A stretch of 64,000 nucleotides of DNA from Nonomuraea guangzhouensis (GTDB lineage Bacteria; Actinomycetota; Actinomycetes; Streptosporangiales; Streptosporangiaceae), in the NCBI RefSeq assembly GCF_019396345.1, contig NZ_JAHKRM010000031.1, positions 62,001 to 126,000 of the forward strand, given 5' to 3'. Positions 9,080-40,374 of the stretch are shown piece by piece (position 1 is the first letter of the stretch; every line of letters starts with the position of its first letter). Position numbers and translations under genes: made by a program. The notes under the pieces are model-generated. The model ran no database searches. It was not told the origin of the DNA and saw only the letters and a program-made list of their open reading frames with translations.

Positions 9080-9570
9080 GACGGTGTCCTTTCGGGTAGG
9101 GCGGCGAGCAGTTCGAGAGCACGCGCGTGCGGGCATCCGTTCCAGGTGGATGTCGGCCCGTGGGCCTGGCAGTCGCCCCCGTGGTCGAACTCGCACGGGT
9201 CGGGATCGGCGAGCTCCCGTAGGAGAGCAAGCAGCTCGCGGCGCTCCTCAGCGGAGACGACGGCCAAGCCGCCCGCCTCTACGGCCCTCACGTGCTTCTC
9301 CGCCCGGCCCACGCAGATCTTGCAGGGGCGTCCGTCCTCTGGGCGGGAGCAGCCGGACAGGGCGATGATCTCAACCGGGGTCGCGGACTTGCTAGCTACA
9401 TGCGAGTTAGCATGCGCGCGTTCGGCGAGGATGGGAGCGGCAGCCTCCAGAGCCACCTTGGCTACGACCCGCTGGAAGTCGGCGAGCGTTGGGTAAGCGT
9501 CAGGGGCGTCGTCCACGGCCTGCAGAGCCTCGACTGCGGCTTGTACGGCTTCCTCGGGAAGGTCTGGCAT
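9076..9570 (-). CDS. Unknown 164-aa Cys-containing protein
   Basis: ATG 9570 (MPDLPEEAVQAAVEAL) overlaps the stop of a 37-aa ORF. The N-terminal two thirds are helical; Cys residues at GCSRPEDGRPCKIC and at CEFDHGGDCQAHG, then CPHAR, could form one or two metal sites. A near-perfect 8-bp inverted repeat lies inside the gene at 9390-9412. No family recognised. Confidence 0.6.
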   Translation of the reverse strand: MPDLPEEAVQAAVEALQAVDDAPDAYPTLADFQRVVAKVALEAAAPILAERAHANSHVASKSATPVEIIALSGCSRPEDGRPCKICVGRAEKHVRAVEAGGLAVVSAEERRELLALLRELADPDPCEFDHGGDCQAHGPTSTWNGCPHARALELLAALPERTPS

Positions 9571-9683
9571 CACGCCCCGCATTCGTGGTCGGGAATCTCG
9601 ATCTCGTCACCAGGGTCCACCTCGGTCCGCAGGAGCACTGCCCGGCAGTCTCGGCAGCGAAGCTCGATCGCAAGGTCAGCCAT
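9570..9683 (-). CDS. 37-aa mini zinc-knuckle protein
   Basis: MADLAIELRCRDCRAVLL followed by an acidic stretch and DHECGA. The CxxC and a later H-x-C could bind one zinc ion. Its ATG overlaps the upstream gene's end and its stop overlaps the downstream ATG (TGATG), so it fits exactly between its neighbours. Confidence 0.5.
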   Translation of the reverse strand: MADLAIELRCRDCRAVLLRTEVDPGDEIEIPDHECGA

Positions 9684-9864
9684 CGTCGCCCCCTTGAATT
9701 GCCTCGCGGACTGTCTTGCACGGCTCCCGCAGGCACGCCAGGTACTCGGTCGGGTACTCCGGCTCGGGGCTGTGCTTGAGGTGCTGCACGCGGGCGTGAG
9801 TCCACAGGGCTGCCTCGGAAGCGCGGTGGGCCTCCAGCAGCGCGTTCAGGACGGGCGTGGTCAC
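9676..9864 (-). CDS. Unknown 62-aa protein
   Basis: GTG 9864 overlaps the previous stop (GTGA). The product is one or two helices (LNALLEAHRASEAALWTHAR) with two Cys (CLREPC) and an acidic end. Unknown. Confidence 0.5.
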   Translation of the reverse strand: MTTPVLNALLEAHRASEAALWTHARVQHLKHSPEPEYPTEYLACLREPCKTVREAIQGGDDG

Positions 9865-10091
9865 TCGGATGCCTCCCTGAGTTCGGATTCGAGCATCTGC
9901 ACGAGCGGGTCGGAGGCGGGCACGCCGGACGCGCGTAACTCGTCGACGGTCAGCGCGGTGATCGCGTGGTTGTAGTCGTAGACGCCCTCCCGTCCCGTGA
10001 CCGTCCAGGTGCCGTCCGGGGAGCGGGTGGCCATGGTGTCGCAGGCGGTGGAGGACATGCGGCCCGCCTTGGGGTCGATCGTAAGAGCCAC
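9861..10091 (-). CDS. Unknown 76-aa protein
   Basis: GTG 10091 follows the upstream stop by 3 bases. The chain MALTIDPKAGRMSSTACD leads to a C-terminal helix (VQMLESELREASE). Soluble; no family recognised. Confidence 0.5.
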   Translation of the reverse strand: MALTIDPKAGRMSSTACDTMATRSPDGTWTVTGREGVYDYNHAITALTVDELRASGVPASDPLVQMLESELREASE

Positions 10092-10094
10092 GGG

Positions 10095-10466
10095 TCAGCC
10101 CTCCTCTGTGAGGGAGGAGTCCGGGGAGAAGCGCGCACGCAGTTCGGCCCCGGTCAGGTCCCGGTTCGCCTCGCTGTAGAAGCCGCGAGCCTCCAACTGC
10201 TGCGCCAGAGCGTGAGCCTCCGGGCGCACCAGCTCGGTCAGCGGGTCCTTGAGGATGTTGATGGCGAGGTCTACCCAGTGGTCCCATGGCCCTTCAGCGT
10301 TGCTGTTGCTGTTGCGCGGCGACCAGGAGGTGAACCAGTCGTCCATCCACGGAGTCCACTGGACGCCGCAGCGCTTGCCCGCGTTGATCGCGGGGATCTC
10401 CTCGAAGTTCGCGGCGGCCTGCTCGAAGTAGTCCTTCACGGCCTGCTCGTGTTCCGGAGTGGTCAT
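10095..10466 (-). CDS. Unknown 123-aa protein
   Basis: ATG 10466 has AAGGAGA 6 bases upstream. Trp-rich and acidic (VQWTPWMDDWFTSWS, EGPWDHWVDLAINIL), soluble, with a C-terminal ELRARFSPDSSLTEEG. It begins a unit just after a perfect 10-bp hairpin, so it may be expressed separately from the gene upstream. Confidence 0.55.
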   Translation of the reverse strand: MTTPEHEQAVKDYFEQAAANFEEIPAINAGKRCGVQWTPWMDDWFTSWSPRNSNSNAEGPWDHWVDLAINILKDPLTELVRPEAHALAQQLEARGFYSEANRDLTGAELRARFSPDSSLTEEG

Positions 10467-10502
10467 CGGGTCTCCTTGTCGTTGATCGCTTGAAGGTCTG
10501 CC

Positions 10503-10526
10503 GTCTCCCGGCAGGAGCCGGGAGAC
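10503..10526 (-). terminator. Perfect 10-bp hairpin between two genes
   Basis: GTCTCCCGGC-AGGA-GCCGGGAGAC lies 16 bp after the stop of the 10542-10883 gene and about 37 bp before the next ribosome binding site. No U-tract follows, which is usual for actinobacterial hairpin terminators. It is one of four such hairpins in this block. Confidence 0.55.
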
Positions 10527-10541
10527 AGGGGAAGGGGCGGG

Positions 10542-10883
10542 TCAGCAGAACTCGCTCTCGCAGAAGGGCACGCCACGCTCGGCGCGGAACGACACCGCCT
10601 TCCGCTCCCAGTCCCACATGCGCTTCTCGCCCGCAGTGATCGCGTCGGCAGGGCGCTTCGTGGCGTCGGCCATGAACGTCTCCCACGCCACCCCGTAACC
10701 GGACTCGGACTCGATGGTCACGTCCTCGCGGGACAGGAACTCGCGCCACGCTGCCACGGAGACGAGCCCGATGTCGCGGTGGGCGCGGAACAGGAACTCC
10801 TTGCCGCCCACGTGCTTGCCGATATGCAGCCCTTCGTCGCCGTCTGGTGTGTCAGGGGTGACCGCGTAGTAGTTGGTGCTCAT
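10542..10883 (-). CDS. Unknown 113-aa protein
   Basis: A GGAGAACC ribosome binding site precedes ATG 10883 (MSTNYYAVTPDTPDGDEG). The pattern MSTNYYAV..., HIGKHVGGKEFLFRAH and REFLSREDVTIESESGYGV resembles a family of small phage and bacterial proteins starting MG(T/A)NYY with a His-rich 'LHIGK' segment. Those have no known activity. Two hairpins bracket the gene. Confidence 0.65.
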   Translation of the reverse strand: MSTNYYAVTPDTPDGDEGLHIGKHVGGKEFLFRAHRDIGLVSVAAWREFLSREDVTIESESGYGVAWETFMADATKRPADAITAGEKRMWDWERKAVSFRAERGVPFCESEFC

Positions 10884-10919
10884 CTCGGTTCTCCGCTCAG
10901 GGTCGAGGGATTGAGGGGG

Positions 10920-10947
10920 TGGCCCGGTAGGGGAAGAGACCGGGCCA
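10920..10947 (-). terminator. 9-bp hairpin between two genes
   Basis: TGGCCCGGT and ACCGGGCCA pair perfectly around a 10-base loop, 7 bp after the stop of the 10954-11202 gene. It occupies the same position as the other hairpins of the block, between a stop codon and the next GGAGAACC start signal. Confidence 0.5.
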
Positions 10948-10953
10948 GCAGGG

Positions 10954-11202
10954 TCAGAGAGTCGCCAACCGAGAGCCGCAGGCGTACACCTTCGTCGCGT
11001 ACTTGAGCGCCTCACGCCAGGCGAGGCCGTCGCTGTCCACGTCGCTCATGTCGAACCAGCGCTCGTCCTCGTGCTCGCTGTGCTCTCGCGCCAGCTCGTC
11101 GCTGCGCTGGATCACCCGGTACTCGTCGCCGAGTTTGAGGATCAGCAGGGTGAGGTCCGATGGCTCCGGCAGCTCGTCGGCGAGGTTGGGCATGTCGCTC
11201 AT
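10954..11202 (-). CDS. Unknown acidic 82-aa protein
   Basis: GGAGAACCG precedes ATG 11202. The protein is acidic (EHSEHEDERWFDMSDVDSDG) with a hydrophobic beta-like middle (LTLLILKLGDEYRVI). The ATG overlaps the upstream stop. It may be an inhibitor-type acidic phage protein, but that is only a possibility. Confidence 0.55.
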   Translation of the reverse strand: MSDMPNLADELPEPSDLTLLILKLGDEYRVIQRSDELAREHSEHEDERWFDMSDVDSDGLAWREALKYATKVYACGSRLATL

Positions 11203-11390
11203 CGGTTCTCCAAAGCGCTGACGCGGTCGCGCAGGTCATCGATCAGATCGGCCAACTCGTCGCGGGCGATTGCCCGGATCTCGTCGGCGATCATGCCGAG
11301 TTCTGTCTCGTTCTCGCCTTTCCAGTTCGCTCCCGCCTCCTTGCAGGCAAGGCGCAGGTAGTGGATGAGGATGTCGGGCTGAGCGGACAT
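11199..11390 (-). CDS. Unknown helical 63-aa protein
   Basis: AAGGAGAACC precedes ATG 11390 (MSAQPDILIHYLRLACKE). It is nearly all charged helix, ending LIDDLRDRVSALENR, a probable coiled coil. Coupled to the next gene by ATGA overlap. Confidence 0.55.
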   Translation of the reverse strand: MSAQPDILIHYLRLACKEAGANWKGENETELGMIADEIRAIARDELADLIDDLRDRVSALENR

Positions 11391-11428
11391 GGTTCTCCTT
11401 GGTCGTCGTCGAGGGGGTTGAGGGTGGA

Positions 11429-11446
11429 GCCCCGGCGTACCGGGGC
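11429..11446 (-). terminator. 7-bp GC hairpin between two genes
   Basis: GCCCCGG-CGTA-CCGGGGC lies 10 bp downstream of the stop of 11456-11713 and upstream of the next AAGGAGAACC signal. Confidence 0.5.
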
Positions 11447-11455
11447 CGAAGAACG

Positions 11456-11713
11456 TCAGGCGGCGTGGCTCAGGGAGTCGCTTTCGTCGTCGTCCGCGTC
11501 GTCTTCGCCTGGCTCGGCGTCGCACTCCTCGCAGCCTTCCTTCGGCTGTTCCTCGTGGTCGGGGCAAATCTCGACGACGGACAGCGTGTAGTCGCGCAGA
11601 TAGGGCTCAGCGAACACGAGGTCGCCGATCCCCTGCTGCGCCTGCTCGCTGGAGCGGAAGCCGGTCTCGGCGAAGCCGCCGTCCTCGTCCACCCAGATGC
11701 CGAACTCGGCCAT
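11456..11713 (-). CDS. Unknown acidic 85-aa protein with Cys residues
   Basis: AAGGAG precedes ATG 11713 (MAEFGIWVDEDGGFAETGF). A middle segment resembles small 'state your attributes' phage proteins. The C-terminus has CPDHEE and CEECDAE followed by an extremely acidic tail (PGEDDADDDESDS). Possible zinc binding. Flanked by hairpins on both sides. Confidence 0.55.
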   Translation of the reverse strand: MAEFGIWVDEDGGFAETGFRSSEQAQQGIGDLVFAEPYLRDYTLSVVEICPDHEEQPKEGCEECDAEPGEDDADDDESDSLSHAA

Positions 11714-11801
11714 GATGTCGCTCCTTGATCGTTGAGGTCTTGGTCTCTGGCGCTCGCCCCGGGTCTCGCACACCGGGATGACTGCTGGTCGGACTGAGTG
11801 G

Positions 11802-11830
11802 CCCCGGGAGGTGCTGGAGTCCTCCCGGGG
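11802..11830 (-). terminator. Perfect 10-bp hairpin between two genes
   Basis: CCCCGGGAGG and CCTCCCGGGG pair around a 9-base loop, 11 bp after the stop of 11842-12087. This is the strongest of the four hairpins of the block. Confidence 0.6.
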
Positions 11831-11841
11831 AACGGATATGG

Positions 11842-12087
11842 CTACAGGGGGGCAGGACGAGCAGCGATGGAAGCGGCGCCGGAGAGGATGCGGAATCTGC
11901 CGTCCACCAGGCGGATGGTCACCTCGCGGTAGCGGGTCCGACCGGCCTGGCTGGTCGCGACGGGGTCGATGCGCTTGATGACCTCGACCACGCGCGACCA
12001 CTCGCCGCTCTGGTAGAGGTCCACATGCCAGCCCACGCGCACCTTGAGGGCGGGAATGTGGGTGGGGCCAAGATCGGCCATGCTCAT
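11842..12087 (-). CDS. Unknown 81-aa beta-rich protein
   Basis: ATG 12087 (MSMADLGPTHIPALKVRVGW) overlaps the upstream stop; an ATG two codons later is also possible. Alternating strands (VTIRLVDGRFRILSG) suggest a small barrel. No family recognised. Confidence 0.5.
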   Translation of the reverse strand: MSMADLGPTHIPALKVRVGWHVDLYQSGEWSRVVEVIKRIDPVATSQAGRTRYREVTIRLVDGRFRILSGAASIAARPAPL

Positions 12088-12344
12088 GCCTCCTTGCTGG
12101 TGCCGTAGATGCCGTTGACAGGTCCGCCCACGGCGTGGAGCCAGAAACCGTCACCGTGCTCGTCGCGGTAGCAGCCGCCGAGCTCCCAGCCGTCGAGGTG
12201 GACGACCTCGTTCCACGTCCAACACTGCGAGGAGGTCTCCCAGCCCTGCTCGGGCTTGTTCATGACGAACAGCTGACCGCCGGCGATGCGGACGAGAACG
12301 TCCGAGGTGAACGAGCGAAGTTCGGTCGACTTGGTGGCGGTCAT
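12084..12344 (-). CDS. Unknown 86-aa protein
   Basis: First gene leftward of the divergent regulatory region. GGGAGAACG precedes ATG 12344 (MTATKSTELRSFTSDVLVRI). The protein is rich in Trp and Gly (WTWNEVVHLDGWELGG). Its promoter should lie in the repeat-bearing spacer 12345-12480. Confidence 0.5.
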   Translation of the reverse strand: MTATKSTELRSFTSDVLVRIAGGQLFVMNKPEQGWETSSQCWTWNEVVHLDGWELGGCYRDEHGDGFWLHAVGGPVNGIYGTSKEA

Positions 12345-12368
12345 CTCGTTCTCCCTGGCGTCTCATCT

Positions 12369-12473
12369 TGTTTCGATACTCAGTACCGTAATAGCTGGAA
12401 CTGAGACTCGCAATAGAGTTTCGCCACTCAGTACCATGATTTTTCTTGAGTCTCGCTACTGAGTTTCGTATCC
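12369..12473. promoter_or_regulatory. Repeated operator-like motifs in a divergent, AT-rich spacer
   Basis: The 136-bp spacer between the genes at 12344(-) and 12481(+) is unusually AT-rich. It holds GTTTCG-n2-ACTCAGTACC twice (near 12369 and 12418) and a related 20-mer twice, GAGACTCGC...GAGTTTCG and GAGTCTCGC...GAGTTTCG, the latter with internal dyad symmetry (CTCGCTACTGAG). This is the look of a multi-site operator controlling both directions. Confidence 0.6.
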
Positions 12474-12480
12474 TTGCCCC

Positions 12481-12765
12481 ATGGACGCTCTCGATCGCCT
12501 CGACCAGGCCGACGACCAGTGGACGGCCGCCGAAGAGACCGCCGCCAAACTCAAGGCGGAACTCTTCGAGGCGTTCGCCGCCGCCGTCCGCGATGGCAAC
12601 ACCCCCGACGACCTTGCCGCCCGGCTGAAGTCCCGCAAGACGCCCGAGCAGGTCGAGGCTGGACTGACCTTCAGTGGCGCGTACATCCGCAGGAAGGTCC
12701 GCGAGATCGGCATTCCCGCACTGCCAACGGGACCGAAGCCTCGCAAACAGCCCGTCTCCGAGTAG
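12481..12765 (+). CDS. Small helical, probable DNA-binding regulator, 94 aa
   Basis: One of few rightward genes in the early block. The chain is helical throughout: a charged N-terminal coiled segment (ALDRLDQADDQWTAAEETAA), then LKAELFEAFAAAVRDGNTPD and a C-terminal GAYIRRKVREIGIPALP, similar in build to small actinobacterial proteins whose second half is a helix-turn-helix. It starts immediately after the repeated operator-like motifs, so autoregulation is plausible. It was not matched to a named family. Confidence 0.6.
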   Translation: MDALDRLDQADDQWTAAEETAAKLKAELFEAFAAAVRDGNTPDDLAARLKSRKTPEQVEAGLTFSGAYIRRKVREIGIPALPTGPKPRKQPVSE

Positions 12766-12769
12766 CCGT

Positions 12770-12991
12770 TCACCCCGCTCCCCAGACGTCGAATCGGGCA
12801 AACTCTGGCCAAGCAAGGGCGAAGGCCAGCAAGGCGGAGATGTGCTCCTGCTCGGCGGTCATAACGACGGACCAGACGCCTTCGCAGTACAGCGGGGTGA
12901 CCTGGGAGACGAGGTCTTGCGGCAGGTCCCGGGCAGCGATCTCCGTGTGTGCGTAGATCTTCACCCGCCAGCGCCGGGAGTAGCCGTTCAC
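12770..12991 (-). CDS. Unknown 73-aa protein
   Basis: GTG 12991 overlaps the upstream stop (GTGA). The protein VNGYSRRWRVKIYAHTEIAA has a DLPQDLVSQVTPL helix and ends FARFDVWGAG. Convergent with the small regulator, leaving 4 bp between stops. Confidence 0.5.
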   Translation of the reverse strand: MNGYSRRWRVKIYAHTEIAARDLPQDLVSQVTPLYCEGVWSVVMTAEQEHISALLAFALAWPEFARFDVWGAG

Positions 12992-14971: not shown

Positions 14972-15052
14972 CGTTCGATTCCTCTCTCAAATCTCGCTCT
15001 TGTTGATGCTTTTCTTGATCGCTTTCCGTACTGGTGATCCATTTGCGAGGCG

Positions 15053-15079
15053 CTGAGAGCCCCGGAGAAGCTCTCAGCC
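15053..15079 (-). terminator. Hairpin terminator after the DUF397 genes
   Basis: GCTGAGAGC and GCTCTCAGC pair perfectly (9 bp) with a 9-base loop, 11 bp after the stop of the DUF397 gene at 15090. The 80 bp beyond it are AT-richer and probably hold the promoter for the next unit. Confidence 0.6.
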
Positions 15080-15089
15080 GGACCGAGCC

Positions 15090-15515
15090 TTAGATGGGTG
15101 CGGAATCCGCCTCAGAAACGGCGACAGGCGGCACAGAGGCGCGCACACGGCCGGTCCCGTCCGAGCCGTGCGTGCCGGATGCGACGAGTCGCGCGACATC
15201 GAAGTCACCCGCCTCGACCCCGGCGACGAACGCATCCACCTCCCGCCGGTCGAACGACAGCACCACGTCCGGCTCGTCGCGCAGCCACACCAGCCACCCG
15301 CCGTCGACGTCCCCCACCCAGAGGACGCCCCTGTAGGTGAGCACCTGGTTCGTCTTGACGGCCGCCAGGAACGACCACCAGGCCGGAACCGGGACGCGCA
15401 GGATCGGCGAGGCGTCGCCGAGCTTGGAGTCCCGCACCCACACCTCATCGGCGTTTGCGCAGGCCACGGTCACACAATGTCCGTTGTTGCTGGCAGACGA
15501 CTTGATCCACCTCAT
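15090..15515 (-). CDS. DUF397 protein, duplicated or extended form, 141 aa
   Basis: MRWIKSSASNNGHCVTVACA and VWVRDSKLGDASPILRVPV are the DUF397 signature (WxKSSxSxxxxxCVEVA ... VxVRDSKxPxxPxLxFxxxxWxxF). A second half with VWLRDEPDVVLSF and VDAFVAGVEAGDFD looks like a partial repeat of the same fold. DUF397 proteins typically pair with XRE regulators and control development in actinobacteria. ATG 15515 overlaps the upstream stop. Confidence 0.85.
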   Translation of the reverse strand: MRWIKSSASNNGHCVTVACANADEVWVRDSKLGDASPILRVPVPAWWSFLAAVKTNQVLTYRGVLWVGDVDGGWLVWLRDEPDVVLSFDRREVDAFVAGVEAGDFDVARLVASGTHGSDGTGRVRASVPPVAVSEADSAPI

Positions 15516-25451: not shown

Positions 25452-25695
25452 CGGAGGGCACCTCCGCGGCGGGAGAGTCCTGCACGGCTGGCGCCGCAGA
25501 CAGGCGAGGCGGTACGGGCGGCAGCTCGCCGAGCTCACGGAGCTTCCTCACGTACTGGCAGATCGCTTCTCGGGACACGTCCATCGCTTCTGCGGCCTGC
25601 TCGTACGTCAGGCCGCGCACGCGGAGGGCCCGGTACTGGGCGAGACGCTGGGCCATGGGAGGGCCGCCGCGGGGGCGGCCGGGACGGTTAGGCAT
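25441..25695 (-). CDS. Helix-turn-helix protein, 84 aa
   Basis: ATG 25695 overlaps the upstream stop. LRVRGLTYEQAAEAMDVSRE followed by AICQYVRKLRELG is a sigma-70 region-4-like helix-turn-helix. The N-terminus is Pro/Arg-rich (MPNRPGRPRGGPPM), like an AT-hook (GRPRGG). It should bind DNA. Confidence 0.75.
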   Translation of the reverse strand: MPNRPGRPRGGPPMAQRLAQYRALRVRGLTYEQAAEAMDVSREAICQYVRKLRELGELPPVPPRLSAAPAVQDSPAAEVPSDGA

Positions 25696-26014: not shown

Positions 26015-26154
26015 AGCAGCGGCCCTCCTTGCTGGGGCTCGTCGGGAAGGTCGGGAAGGGCGCCGGTTGGCGGGTCCTCACGGCGGGCGTCGCACACCGC
26101 CCAGTGGTCCAGGAGGGCTTGCTGGCAACAGGGGCGGAGATCGGGGGATGTCAC
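26011..26154 (-). CDS. 47-aa linking ORF
   Basis: GTG 26154 overlaps the stop of the cytosine methyltransferase, and its stop overlaps the next GTG. The product VTSPDLRPCCQQALLDHWAV has CC and a later C, then a Pro/Asp-rich tail. Exact coupling at both ends supports translation; function unknown. Confidence 0.5.
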   Translation of the reverse strand: MTSPDLRPCCQQALLDHWAVCDARREDPPTGALPDLPDEPQQGGPLL

Positions 26155-28100
26155 GCGACCTCCTCGGCGTGAAGGGAGGCGCGGAGTCGGCTGCCGATCC
26201 AGTGCCCGACCGGAGGGCTGACGGCGTTGCCGAAACCGTCGACCTGGTCGCGCGCGGAGCCCCAGACGGTGAAGGTGCCCTTGTGGTCGGCGAAGTCGAC
26301 GTCGAAGCCGCAGCCGGCGCCGACCTCGTGCGAGGCCATCATGCGGAAGTAGCAGTCTTCGAGCTTCAGGTTCGCGAGGACCTCGCGCCATTGGGTGTGG
26401 GGTGGTTCGGCGCCGTTCTGCGTGTGCCAGCCGGAGAAGAGCATGCTCTGGGTGATCGCGGATCCGACGACAGTGCCGAGCGGGTCGTCGAGGCCGTGGG
26501 CGCGGTACTTCGCTTCGTCGATCGACCCGTTGTTCTTGATGGTCCCGGCTGCGGTGAGCACGCCGGGGATCTGGTCGGACGTGACGGTGGGCATGGCTTC
26601 GGCATGCGATGTCGGGGTGGTGTTCTTCCGGAACGGAAGGACACCGGTAGAGAGCAGCGCCATGGTCTCCGAGCCGCCCTGTGTGGGGAGTGTCTCGTCG
26701 ACGCCACGAGGTGCGCCCTGGAAGTTGTTCACCGCGACCAGGACCGCCTTCTCGTGCGTGCTCGTGACCGTGTCCATCGGCTGGGTGATGTGCTTGCCGT
26801 CGCCGTTGTGCCGGTGCGCGACCATCACCTGTCCGGTCACCAGGGCGACCGGGGGCGCGAGAAGTGCCTGGGTGTTGGTCGCGGTCTGCGAGGGCAGAGG
26901 CGCGCCCAGGTCGCGGGTGCGGCAGTCGGAGCCGGGGCGTTCGTAGGTGTTCCCGGCGGCGGCGATGAGCGCGCCGGTCGAGAGGATCGAGGTCTCCTGC
27001 TGGCTGGTCTGCGTGACGAGGGGCTGCCACGGATGGCGTTCGGATCCGCGCTGGGATTTGGCCGGCATGAGGACGGCGGGAAAGTCGGCGAACCGCTGCT
27101 TGCATCGCTCGGCCCTGGCCATGGTGGCTGGTGCGAGCGGGCTGAGGATGGTCTCGCCGGTCGTCTTGTCCGTGAATTCGCGGAGCGGCTTGTCTCCGAT
27201 CCGGGTGCCGAGGTTGGACAGGTCGAGCGCGTTCAGCGACGGCGCGAATGGGGGGATCACGACACGCCTGCATGAGGGGCACCGATAGTCGTACTGCTTG
27301 CCGTAGCGGACGCTGCCGGTGGGCGGGATCCCGGTCTTCCACGTCCATACGGCTTGGACGATGGTGCTGCATCCGGAGCACCACGACTCGGGCCGGTGGT
27401 CGAGGTCCGGGGTGGGCAGGCGTTCGTCCCAGAAGATCCAGTAGCCGCGGTCGCGGGACTGCGGGACGCCGAAGAACATGCTGTTGAGGTAGAGGACGCG
27501 GTGCTTGTAGCTCAGGACGCCGAACTGCTTGAGCCACCACCGGTACGTGGAACCGTCGCCGTACTTCTTGCCCTGCACGGCCGGGCCCCACGAGGTGAGT
27601 TCGGTGGTGCACTCAATGAGGGCCATCCGAGGGTGGTGCTCGGCGACGTAGTGAAGCGCGCAGTTCGCCGTGGCGCGGTCGCGCTCTGATCGGGTGACGC
27701 GCTCTTCGAAGTCGGGGTCGTCGAGCTCGAACAGCGCCAGGCCCTGCTCGTAGGCCTTCTGGGTGTTGGCCTGCGAGTGGTTGACGCAGCTCACGCCGGC
27801 GACCAGGAGATCAGCCGGGGGCAGGTCCCTGACGGAGTGGTAGTCGGACGACTCCCGGTCGACCAGGTCCGCGATCCAGTGCTCGGCGTTCGGGTGGTTG
27901 GCCTCGTGGACCTCGACCTTGTAGGCGTTGTGGTTCGCCGCCATGATCGTGGTGAACCCCGCGAGCTCGATGCCCTGCGTCAATCCACCGAATCCGCTGA
28001 AGAGGTCAACGGCGATGAGGTCGTCGTGGCGGAACCGGCGCCGGCGTACGGCGGGGCGATGTGTCGCAACGCGGTGCGGCTGCGAAGGTCGGCGACTCAA
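26151..28100 (-). CDS. Divergent C5-cytosine DNA methyltransferase
   Basis: TTG 28100 follows GGAGGAG. Motif I VDLFSGFGGLTQGIELAGF binds AdoMet. The motif IV Cys is residue 105 in AGVSCVNHSQANTQ, where the usual Pro-Cys is Ser-Cys. Motif VI normally has ENV but here reads LIECTTELTSWGP (E163, C164). Motif VIII is FFGVPQSRDRGYW with Q214 and R218; motif X is DGFGNAVSPPVGHWI. A zinc ribbon (CSGC... CPSC near 245-280) and a long target-recognition region with repeated Thr/Ser patterns are inserted. It is one of the few long genes of the element. The Cys-variant motifs resemble a phage-specific subgroup that carries S-x-x-C-T/V-x-H-S, so the product may be an unusual base modification. Confidence 0.9.
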   Translation of the reverse strand: MSRRPSQPHRVATHRPAVRRRRFRHDDLIAVDLFSGFGGLTQGIELAGFTTIMAANHNAYKVEVHEANHPNAEHWIADLVDRESSDYHSVRDLPPADLLVAGVSCVNHSQANTQKAYEQGLALFELDDPDFEERVTRSERDRATANCALHYVAEHHPRMALIECTTELTSWGPAVQGKKYGDGSTYRWWLKQFGVLSYKHRVLYLNSMFFGVPQSRDRGYWIFWDERLPTPDLDHRPESWCSGCSTIVQAVWTWKTGIPPTGSVRYGKQYDYRCPSCRRVVIPPFAPSLNALDLSNLGTRIGDKPLREFTDKTTGETILSPLAPATMARAERCKQRFADFPAVLMPAKSQRGSERHPWQPLVTQTSQQETSILSTGALIAAAGNTYERPGSDCRTRDLGAPLPSQTATNTQALLAPPVALVTGQVMVAHRHNGDGKHITQPMDTVTSTHEKAVLVAVNNFQGAPRGVDETLPTQGGSETMALLSTGVLPFRKNTTPTSHAEAMPTVTSDQIPGVLTAAGTIKNNGSIDEAKYRAHGLDDPLGTVVGSAITQSMLFSGWHTQNGAEPPHTQWREVLANLKLEDCYFRMMASHEVGAGCGFDVDFADHKGTFTVWGSARDQVDGFGNAVSPPVGHWIGSRLRASLHAEEVA

Positions 28101-30207: not shown

Positions 30208-30280
30208 TGCTTTGGTTCTCCTGGTGCAGGTGCTGTTCGGTTGGCCACGCATGCCCGCACAGGCGCGGGCAGCGGGTCGT

Positions 30281-31437: not shown

Positions 31438-31495
31438 GCGGTCTCCTAAGGGTTGGGACGGTGGGCGCCCCCGATAGGCCACCCACCGGCAGGGG

Positions 31496-38511: not shown

Positions 38512-40212
38512 ATGGCGTTCCATCAAGTACGCAAGGACGGCGTCATCGTCGCCCGGTGGAAGAAGGCCGACGGCTCCTGGGGGACCAAGTCCCGCAATCC
38601 CGACACGGGCGAGCACTGGGCTACTCCTGGTGAAGCGGAGACGTGGGGCGCCTGGATGGAGGACCTCGAACGGCGTGGCCTCGCCCCCGACTACTCCCGC
38701 AGAAGGAAGCCTGCTTCTGATCCCGAGCCGGGGCAGGACGACGACGCCATAACCGTCAACGAATGGTTCGCCCGGTGGTGGCCCGGCATCGACCTCAGCC
38801 TCAAAGGGCGCAACAACTACGCCTACATCTTCCGCGCTCACGTCCTCCCAGAGTGGGGGCACTGGGCGCTGAGAGACATCAAGTCTTCCGACGTGAACGC
38901 CTGGGAACAGCGGATGATCGCCGCCGGATATAGCCGGAGCGGTGTGGCTCAGAGCGCCCGCACAAGGCTGACCACCCTCCTGGGGGACGCCGTCATCGAA
39001 GGGCTGATCGACTCCAACGCCGCTCTGCGTCAGCGCCACCGCGGACGCCGGTCTGGCGCCGGTACGGCCGGCCGTGGCCAGGAGAAGCGGGCACTCTCCC
39101 CGTTCCAAGCACTCACCACCGCGGAGCGCATGGGCGTCATGTCGGGCAGGGATGACGAGTTCATCTTCGGAATGACGGTCGCCTGGTGTGCTCTGCGCGA
39201 CGGGGAAGCGTTCGGGCTGCAGCGGCCTGACGTGCGACTCGGGAGGATCCGCCTCGACTGGCAACTACTCGAAGAGGACGGGGAGTTCTATCGGCTCCAC
39301 CCCAAGGACGACAGCAACCGCGACATCGACATTCCGCCCTTCCTCCAGGAGTTGCTGAACCGGCAGATCGCCGCCCATCCAGACCAGCGCTGCGCATGCA
39401 AGCCGAAGACGATCCCAGATCAGGAAGAGCAGCCGTGCCAGGGGGGCCAGCCCTACATCTTCCTGGGCGAGAAAGGGGCGCATCCTCGCCGTTCGAATTT
39501 CAGCCGGCGGGTCTTCTACCCGGCGATGGACGGCTGGTATCCGAGCGGCAAGGGCAAGCGCCGGGCGGGAGCTCCTGTCCTGGTGGAAGTGGAGTCGTCG
39601 TGGCCGGGCGTACCGGTGCCGGCGTGGCCGAAGGCGGTCAAGGACGAGCCGTGGGAGCCGCAGCTCGTTCGGGGCTACCAGCGGCGTCCGCTCGGGCTCG
39701 GCGTGAACGTGGCGTCATCTAAGGCGGACCTGGTTGCGTTCGCGGTCACACAAGGGTTGCCGGAGAGGCTTGCGCGACAGATGACCCGCGAGCAGATCCT
39801 TGCCCGCTTCATCCGGCCGGTTGCTCCGGACGCGTCGGTAGCGACGTGGCTTCCGATCGAGAAGGGGTTGACCCTGCACGAGCTGGGCCGGCACACCCAT
39901 TCGACGTGGCTGATGGACCTGAGTTGCCCGTTGCAGCTCCGCGACGACCGGATGGGGCACGCCTCGCCGGACATGCGGGGGATGCGGGAGCGGTACTCGC
40001 ATGTGACGCCCGAGTCGCGCGCATGGCTGCGGGCCGAGCTGGAGCGGGTCAAGGATGCGGCTCTGGCGCGGCGCGCGTGGTTCGGTCCGCATTCCCCTGT
40101 GGCGGCACTGGACGAGATGTTGGCTCCGTTCCGTGACGGGTTGCGGAAGCCGATCGCCCCGTATGAGGCGCGCGGAGAGGTCCTCGAATTCCCTACCTTC
40201 CGTGCAGGTTAA
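38512..40212 (+). CDS. int: Tyrosine-type site-specific integrase, 566 aa
   Basis: N-terminal arm-binding part (WKKADGSWGTKSRNP), SAM-like core-binding domain about 80-170 (ITVNEWFARWWPGIDLSLKG), then the catalytic domain: R229 in WCALRDGEAFGL, H456 and R460 in LHELGRHTHSTW, H483 in DRMGHASPDMRG and nucleophile Y495 in RERYSHV. H-x-x-x-R has one extra residue compared with the usual H-x-x-R. About 100 extra residues lie between box I and box II, including a Cys-rich loop (RCACKPKTIPDQEEQPC). Actinobacterial tRNA-associated integrases of this size are common. It points at the tRNA-Ala 3' end, its presumed attB. Confidence 0.95.
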   Translation: MAFHQVRKDGVIVARWKKADGSWGTKSRNPDTGEHWATPGEAETWGAWMEDLERRGLAPDYSRRRKPASDPEPGQDDDAITVNEWFARWWPGIDLSLKGRNNYAYIFRAHVLPEWGHWALRDIKSSDVNAWEQRMIAAGYSRSGVAQSARTRLTTLLGDAVIEGLIDSNAALRQRHRGRRSGAGTAGRGQEKRALSPFQALTTAERMGVMSGRDDEFIFGMTVAWCALRDGEAFGLQRPDVRLGRIRLDWQLLEEDGEFYRLHPKDDSNRDIDIPPFLQELLNRQIAAHPDQRCACKPKTIPDQEEQPCQGGQPYIFLGEKGAHPRRSNFSRRVFYPAMDGWYPSGKGKRRAGAPVLVEVESSWPGVPVPAWPKAVKDEPWEPQLVRGYQRRPLGLGVNVASSKADLVAFAVTQGLPERLARQMTREQILARFIRPVAPDASVATWLPIEKGLTLHELGRHTHSTWLMDLSCPLQLRDDRMGHASPDMRGMRERYSHVTPESRAWLRAELERVKDAALARRAWFGPHSPVAALDEMLAPFRDGLRKPIAPYEARGEVLEFPTFRAG

Positions 40213-40280: not shown

Positions 40281-40301
40281 GCTTCCATGTTCTGACCTGT
40301 G

Positions 40302-40374
40302 TGGAGCCTAGGAGATTCGAACTCCTGACTTCCTGCTTGCAAAGCAGGCGCTCTGCCAACTGAGCTAAGGCCCC
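40302..40374 (-). tRNA. tRNA-Ala (TGC anticodon), phage attachment site
   Basis: The 73-nt sequence folds into a full cloverleaf: acceptor GGGGCCT/AGGCTCC with the G3-T70 pair that marks tRNA-Ala, D-stem GCTC...GAGC, anticodon loop TTTGCAA (anticodon TGC), T-arm AGGAG-TTCGAAT-CTCCT and discriminator A. CCA is not encoded. Its 3' end faces the integrase gene. Confidence 0.98.

Follow-up and report, generated by a model that had tools for sequence, protein, structure and literature searches.

U-less, terminator-like hairpins behind stop codons in a small-gene operon of a Nonomuraea-type prophage, and gene junctions shared with related viruses

The early terminators of phage phiC31 are reported to lack poly-U tails and provide an actinophage precedent for hairpin terminators of this kind (cited in PMC8355165 and PMC5335608). 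Among the 3' ends reported for Streptomyces clavuligerus, structured ends lacking a U-tract (353) outnumber U-rich ones (182; PMC8269248). A counterpoint comes from in vitro work, cited in the M. tuberculosis paper (PMC5335608), in which mycobacterial RNA polymerase depends on a U-tract. In the gal operon of E. coli, the galE intercistronic hairpin is described as blocking 3' exonucleases after Rho termination. For the ESAS of cluster K mycobacteriophages, the account of Pope 2011 (PMC3203893) gives little support for their hairpins acting in mRNA.

The window analyzed here is a 64-kb stretch (C53:62001-126000) of a 13.67-Mb assembly, whose host is taken as Nonomuraea (Streptosporangiaceae), and the finding sits within a prophage of a Nonomuraea-type actinomycete. 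The prophage is marked by an integrase gene (phrog_1; 38512-40212) beside a tRNA-Ala gene (40301-40374), by a 44-bp copy of the tRNA end at C53:8164-8207, and by an encoded DnaB-like helicase; the ten best IMG/VR relatives of its terminase are 81–84% identical. Its left border is uncertain. Copies of the tRNA-Ala end lie to the left of the prophage at C53:6045-6083 (39 bp at 95%) and C53:8164-8207 (44 bp, exact), and some proteins encoded at C53:18-30 kb resemble FtsK/TraB by eye, so that there may be another integrated element in between. A 649-aa protein encoded at 26151-28100 carries a C-5 cytosine DNA methylase domain. No similarity at the DNA level to annotated phages was found for 9800-12600 (distant mode) or 1-25000 (near mode), and tRNA was the sole Rfam match at the gathering threshold.

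All genes flanking the hairpins lie on the minus strand, in a leftward operon of small genes that we read as early because the genes are small and non-structural. As delimited by a simple gene caller written for this analysis, they are, from right to left, gene 12084 (12084-12344), a 79-aa gene (11842-12081), a small acidic 85-aa gene (11456-11713), a 63-aa gene (11199-11390), an 82-aa gene (10954-11202), a 113-aa gene (10542-10883; phrog_12436, unknown function) that served as the query for finding relatives, and a 123-aa gene (10095-10466) with homologues in five IMG/VR contigs. Eight genes from 10095 to 12765 were tested at E 0.01, of which two match a PHROG and none matches Pfam; the 79-, 85-, and 82-aa genes have no match in either. 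The 63- and 82-aa genes overlap by 4 nt, and their junction therefore has neither gap nor hairpin.

Upstream of the leftward gene 12084 lie four operator-like repeats (12374-12468), which are copies of WACTGAGWNNCG in alternating orientation between the divergent genes 12084(-) and 12481(+); the latter encodes a helix-turn-helix protein (phrog_686, E 3e-5). With a pattern drawn from these same copies, 0.25 occurrences are expected in the window and none of 100 shuffles reaches four, and the sequences examined from five relatives contain no exact match. These repeats are perhaps the operators of an early switch. Gene 12084 begins like a gene in each of the related sequences G341, G217, and G312: its leader and initial codons (ATGACCGCCACC; 12332-12364) recur there, after which the proteins differ by eye.

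The sequence-only reading had located four near-perfect GC hairpins among these small genes, each between a stop codon and the next start. On the minus strand this proved right for all four, at the following positions, and the stems are in fact perfect. Hairpin A (11802-11830; stem 10, loop 9; -21.4 kcal/mol) begins 11 nt past a TAG stop. The other three follow TGA stops: hairpin B (11429-11446; stem 7, loop 4) after 9 nt, hairpin C (10920-10947; stem 9, loop 10; -16.3 kcal/mol) after 6 nt, and hairpin D (10503-10526; stem 10, loop 4; -21.3 kcal/mol) after 15 nt, with B the weakest of the four (-14.5 kcal/mol). That reading missed that the hairpins adjoin the stop codon and not the start. The distance from hairpin to ATG is 88 nt for A, 38 nt for B, and 36 nt for C and D, and the intervening minus-strand leaders are A (11714-11801; 88 nt, with AAGGAG), B (11391-11428; CCCTCAACCCCCTCGAC...AAGGAGAACC), C (10884-10919; CCCCCTCAATCCCTCGAC...GGAGAACC), and D (10467-10502; TTCAAGCGATCAACGACAAGGAG). 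Between 10467 and 11841, all four co-directional gaps of at least 40 nt hold a hairpin. A further gap of the same kind, unnoticed before (14972-15089, minus strand), has a significant hairpin (GCTGAGAGC...GCTCTCAGC) 11 nt past the stop. Hairpins in the gaps 25657-25687, 30208-30280, and 31438-31495 were considered as extra members and dropped, as they fail the 0.02 threshold or the gap is too short.

Hairpins A, C, and D are clearly above chance. With 1000 dinucleotide shuffles per gap, the probability of an equally good perfect hairpin is 0.001 for A, 0.019 for B, 0.004 for C, and 0.001 for D; in a looser search allowing G-U pairs and loops up to 14 nt (100 shuffles), B alone of the four fails the 0.02 threshold. 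Taken as whole regions, the gaps do not fold clearly better than their shuffles (z -0.6 to -1.2).

Hairpins of this type extend beyond the four gaps. Seven sequences were scanned, comprising the window prophage, a Nonomuraea indica contig, two 40-kb genome slices centred on homologues of gene 10542 (which may not be wholly prophage), two IMG/VR contigs, and phiC31. Among their 165 co-directional gaps of 40–300 nt, 43 contain a significant hairpin (P ≤ 0.02), against about 3 expected. The window prophage contributes 5 of 21 gaps, leaving 16 without, and phiC31 contributes 10 of 26, six of these ten having at most two T in the tail. Of the 43 hairpins, 35 are closer to the stop than to the start and 8 are closer to the start; with the limit set at 20 nt, 30 adjoin the stop and 5 the start. 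This bias is partly expected because the Shine-Dalgarno (SD) site needs room ahead of the start. The 8-nt tail holds at most two T in 29 of the 43 and at least four in 7. In the same sequences, convergent gaps hold hairpins in 13 of 25 cases, and these are seemingly longer, with T counts that are the best of two strands and hence incomparable with the co-directional ones. In IMG/VR, the pattern TGACC-GGCCCGG..CCGGGCC occurs at no fewer than 122 sites; at 74 or more of these the TGA ends a frame of at least 45 codons or one reaching the contig edge, and at least 45 of the latter have an SD and a start within 90 nt. A narrower hairpin pattern matched no IMG/VR contig beyond one already known.

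The position of the hairpins is partly retained in relatives. Homologues of gene 10542 are 81% (L008, in G341), 66% (L284), 62% (L288, N. indica), 54% (L285), and 51% (L289) identical; the N. indica contig (G021:C27, 54,762 bases) is taken as Nonomuraea indica NZ_PJOK01000087.1. Upstream of the homologue, the stem TGGCCCGG/CCGGGCCA occurs in both the window and L008, with altered loops; at this position L285 has by eye a different stem, and L284 and L288 have the leader and no hairpin. Downstream, a post-stop hairpin is present in the window (hairpin D), L008, L285, and L288, and none was found in L284 and L289; L008, L288, and L285 share GCTCTC...GAGAG stems with diverged loops, and the window stem is different. 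Five genes following the homologues were readable (none for L285), and they have no blastp matches among them; the preceding genes called for L285 and L289 seem to be in wrong frames and are left out. Within a comparison limited to these five, the downstream hairpin thus tends to travel with the gene that it follows. Ahead of the 10095 homologue, a hairpin gap was seen in one of five IMG/VR loci (L016), and at the other four the homologue closely trails coding sequence with no such gap, both by eye. Stem changes were judged by comparison, the sequences being too few for a formal covariation test. Absence of the hairpins from close relatives had been named as a refutation; they are present in some relatives and absent from others. 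Chance stems in GC-rich gaps could be argued for hairpin B, which taken alone is marginal. For the set as a whole we consider chance most improbable, given P values of 0.001–0.004 for three of the four hairpins, the excess over expectation in the scanned gaps, and the hairpins at orthologous places in some relatives.

None of hairpins A–D is followed by a U-tract, the mark of a canonical intrinsic terminator. The 8-nt tails hold one T in A and C and two in D and B (B tail, TCCACCCT), fewer than three in every case, and as GC-rich stem-loops past a stop codon the four have the form of U-less (I-shaped) terminators. One U-tailed terminator-like site occurs in 9500-12800, away from the hairpins, and this number equals chance. 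A sigma70 consensus scan found no promoter-like site in the gaps, with the proviso that phage and actinobacterial promoters may differ from that consensus, and the 36–38 nt between hairpin and ATG in B–D leaves little room for a promoter plus leader. With neither U-tracts nor promoter sites in the gaps, the operon may continue across them, which would suit hairpins acting solely as signals for mRNA decay or processing, such as RNase III cleavage, with no role in termination. Stems of 7–10 bp, as found here, are short substrates for RNase III. The intercistronic hairpin that acts as a 3' stabilizer in E. coli gal would be a parallel for such signals; however, U-less hairpins of actinophages are reported as terminators, and we regard an exclusive role in decay as quite unlikely.

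Because they stand behind the stop, lack U-tracts, and recur as stems at equivalent positions in some relatives, the hairpins are probably U-less, terminator-like 3'-end elements of the mRNAs of the preceding small genes, with junction exchange as a second layer. In the mRNA, the hairpin would fold right behind the stop codon after the ribosome departs. It may cause RNA polymerase to pause or partially terminate without a U-tract, either by itself or together with Rho acting on the C-rich leader, and it may block 3'-to-5' exonucleases. The small genes would then have a defined, stable message end, the genes downstream would be stepped down, and translation of the following gene would begin anew from the C-rich leader with its GGAG. 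The function of the RNA, the strength of termination, and its dependence on Rho are what we infer from the sequence.

In the folds predicted for gaps A and B, the segment behind the stop pairs with the SD and the start, which suggested a translational-coupling switch that a terminating ribosome would open. Over 33 hairpin gaps, however, the post-stop segment pairs with its own ribosome-binding site (RBS) at -10.1 kcal/mol and with those of other gaps at -10.3 kcal/mol (permutation P 0.65). Sequestration of the RBS by the post-stop segment was rejected on these 33 gaps, and such a switch is very unlikely.

The leaders resemble one another in part. The sequence-only reading saw a single intergenic unit copied several times, with related CCCTCAA...CTCGAC and GGAGAACC sequences in two of the gaps. 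Gaps B and C do share this likeness (score 31, shuffle P 0.001), and one of 156 background leaders matches leader C equally well, equaling the B–C score. Over 36 nt, the pairs B–C (shuffle P 0.001), A–D (0.0025), B–D (0.0035), and A–B (0.016) are alike, with the SD and C-rich composition contributing to these scores, and the same test gave no significant likeness for A–C and C–D. Likeness outside the stems after alignment, whose absence had been set as a refutation, is thus present for some leader pairs. The copied unit itself did not hold up: the four stems are unrelated in sequence by eye, and strong likeness between leaders of the same phage is rare. Among 139 leaders from six sequences, 66 of all 9591 pairs score at least 24 and three of these are same-phage pairs; the between-phage counts include orthologous junctions and starts inside coding sequence and are not used as proof. 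A repeat family within the phage was rejected on the count of three, and a common operator in the stems was rejected as well, since four differing stems offer no common binding site. The leaders thus have a common style and are in part related by descent, but they do not form a repeat array.

Leader and hairpin together could also form a start-associated unit, a cis element for translation initiation or protein binding like the SAS/ESAS of cluster K. Such a unit would account for the sequences common to leaders B and C, and for a near-identical leader that precedes two adjacent N. indica genes, once with and once without a hairpin, and recurs in G342. Yet the hairpins gather at the stop (30 of 43, vs 5 at the start), the 13-bp SAS GGGATAGGAGCCC has no match in the 64-kb window at up to two mismatches, and leader repetition within a phage is not general. 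We therefore consider a start-associated unit unlikely, and the 3'-end elements described above remain the preferred reading.

Certain junctions are conserved among related viruses even where no homology was seen between the adjoining genes. A BLASTN comparison of six sequences (E 0.001, one strand after orienting) gave 190 matches, of which 49 lie outside genes with any blastp homology (E 0.01, 60-nt margin), a set in which undetected remote homology could relate some genes counted as non-homologous. In 15 of the 49, the midpoint of the match is no more than 40 nt from a start codon in both partners; 2000 start shifts gave 0.69 such matches on average and at most 6 (P 0.0005). Eighteen contain or closely precede the start in both partners (shift mean 1.5, maximum 7); ten of these 18 listed junction matches come from the single pair N. 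indica (G021) and G342 and are not independent, and one match is a long collagen-like stretch that possibly reflects true gene homology. Under a looser definition, 16 of 55 matches fall on starts; inside homologous genes, 10 of 135 do.

Individual junctions illustrate this pattern. Two gaps, gap 1 (84% over 68 nt) and gap 3 (81% over 88 nt), are common to N. indica and G342, and the genes between them differ. Gap A matches a gap in the G217 slice (score 53, shuffle maximum 32; P 0.005, the test floor), where 11746-11794 of leader A is 80% identical and the flanking genes have no blastp homology. Gap C matches G341 (score 45) and G342 (score 39; shuffle maximum 32; P 0.005, again the test floor); the similar gaps hold hairpins both in L008/G341 and in G342, where the neighbouring genes are different ones. 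Gap D is borderline against the relatives (P 0.045), and no significant gap was found in them for gap B (P 0.17). In the region of the gap 14972-15089, positions 15050-15124 are 78% identical to G342. Homology confined to junctions with unrelated flanking genes, as in boundary sequences, is therefore found, with one pair dominant. Separately, a 26-nt gene-end/gene-start junction, CTCCTCCGAGGAGGGCTCCCGATGAG, is identical in N. indica (L292, 12479-12504) and G342 (L306, 3687-3712) beside different genes; G342 has a close second copy, and the window has no close copy above chance.

Junctions conserved beside non-homologous genes are as expected if small genes swap at these places, and from the sequences we infer that small genes may have been exchanged by recombination there. 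It is a tentative possibility that the hairpin junctions are modular boundary cassettes, each combining a terminator-like stem that ends the upstream gene with a leader that starts the next. They would provide homology patches for the exchange of single small genes among Streptosporangiaceae phages, as a promoter-less counterpart of the PeSL cassettes of T4-like phages. Our estimate for these cassettes was lowered slightly because the pair G021–G342 weighs heavily. The hairpins look ordinary for actinophages, and the conserved junctions look like the more interesting part; the junction finding, which draws on six sequences with one pair dominant and on simple gene calls, is mildly interesting. 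U-less post-stop hairpins point to a way in which high-GC phages with densely packed genes may insulate their small genes while saving the sequence that promoters would take up. Should the junctions truly guide exchange, they would offer a tractable case for phage mosaicism, in which boundary homology can be weighed against illegitimate recombination.

Compared with described systems, the locus is close to the phiC31 early terminators, which are likewise GC-rich hairpins of an actinophage in gaps past stop codons. It differs in that several phiC31 gaps carry the repeat GGTTGCCGAC..CCTTA, which we take to be the phiC31 early promoter. In the window this repeat has one match, with 3 mismatches, at 10954-10970, at the end of the gene 10954-11202 and within chance. 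With the I-shaped (U-less) terminators and U-lacking 3' ends described for high-GC Actinobacteria (PMC5335608, PMC8269248), the hairpins share a GC stem, a short loop, fewer than three U, and a position at gene ends; those reports draw on 3'-end or reporter data, whereas the present assignment draws on sequence. A search of the literature on actinophage hairpins and I-shaped terminators returned no title describing these junctions, and we do not claim their absence from print.

The start-associated repeats of mycobacteriophages, with which the sequence-only reading had compared the gaps, agree in form only. As described for cluster K (Pope 2011, PMC3203893), SAS/ESAS are a conserved stretch at the starts of different gene families in a non-structural region, with an inverted repeat at some sites only. 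The comparison fails at the 13-bp SAS itself, which is missing here, and at the 17-bp conserved inverted repeat next to it, in place of which the window has stems of 7–10 bp that differ in sequence; moreover, the hairpins here stand at the stop and, between relatives, keep their pairing while their sequence changes. The PeSL cassettes of T4-like phages (Arbiol 2010, Comeau 2014, via PMC4503421) are described as short stem-loop units between small exchangeable genes in related phages; the junctions here are likewise short intergenic units with a stem-loop between small, putatively exchangeable genes. Recurrence beside different genes, as in PeSL, is seen at junctions of the relatives and, among the window gaps, for A and C; it is borderline for D and is not seen for B. 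Unlike PeSL, the junctions show no promoter by the sigma70 scan, their stems differ, the host is high-GC, and the likeness is mostly between genomes. Finally, the boundary sequences reported in phage mosaicism (PMC3029335, PMC3233612) resemble this locus in having brief stretches of homology where genes meet, with different genes lying in between; what differs here is that several junctions, some with hairpins, are involved, in Streptosporangiaceae-associated prophages and IMG/VR contigs, where the similarity at the boundaries may reflect exchange.
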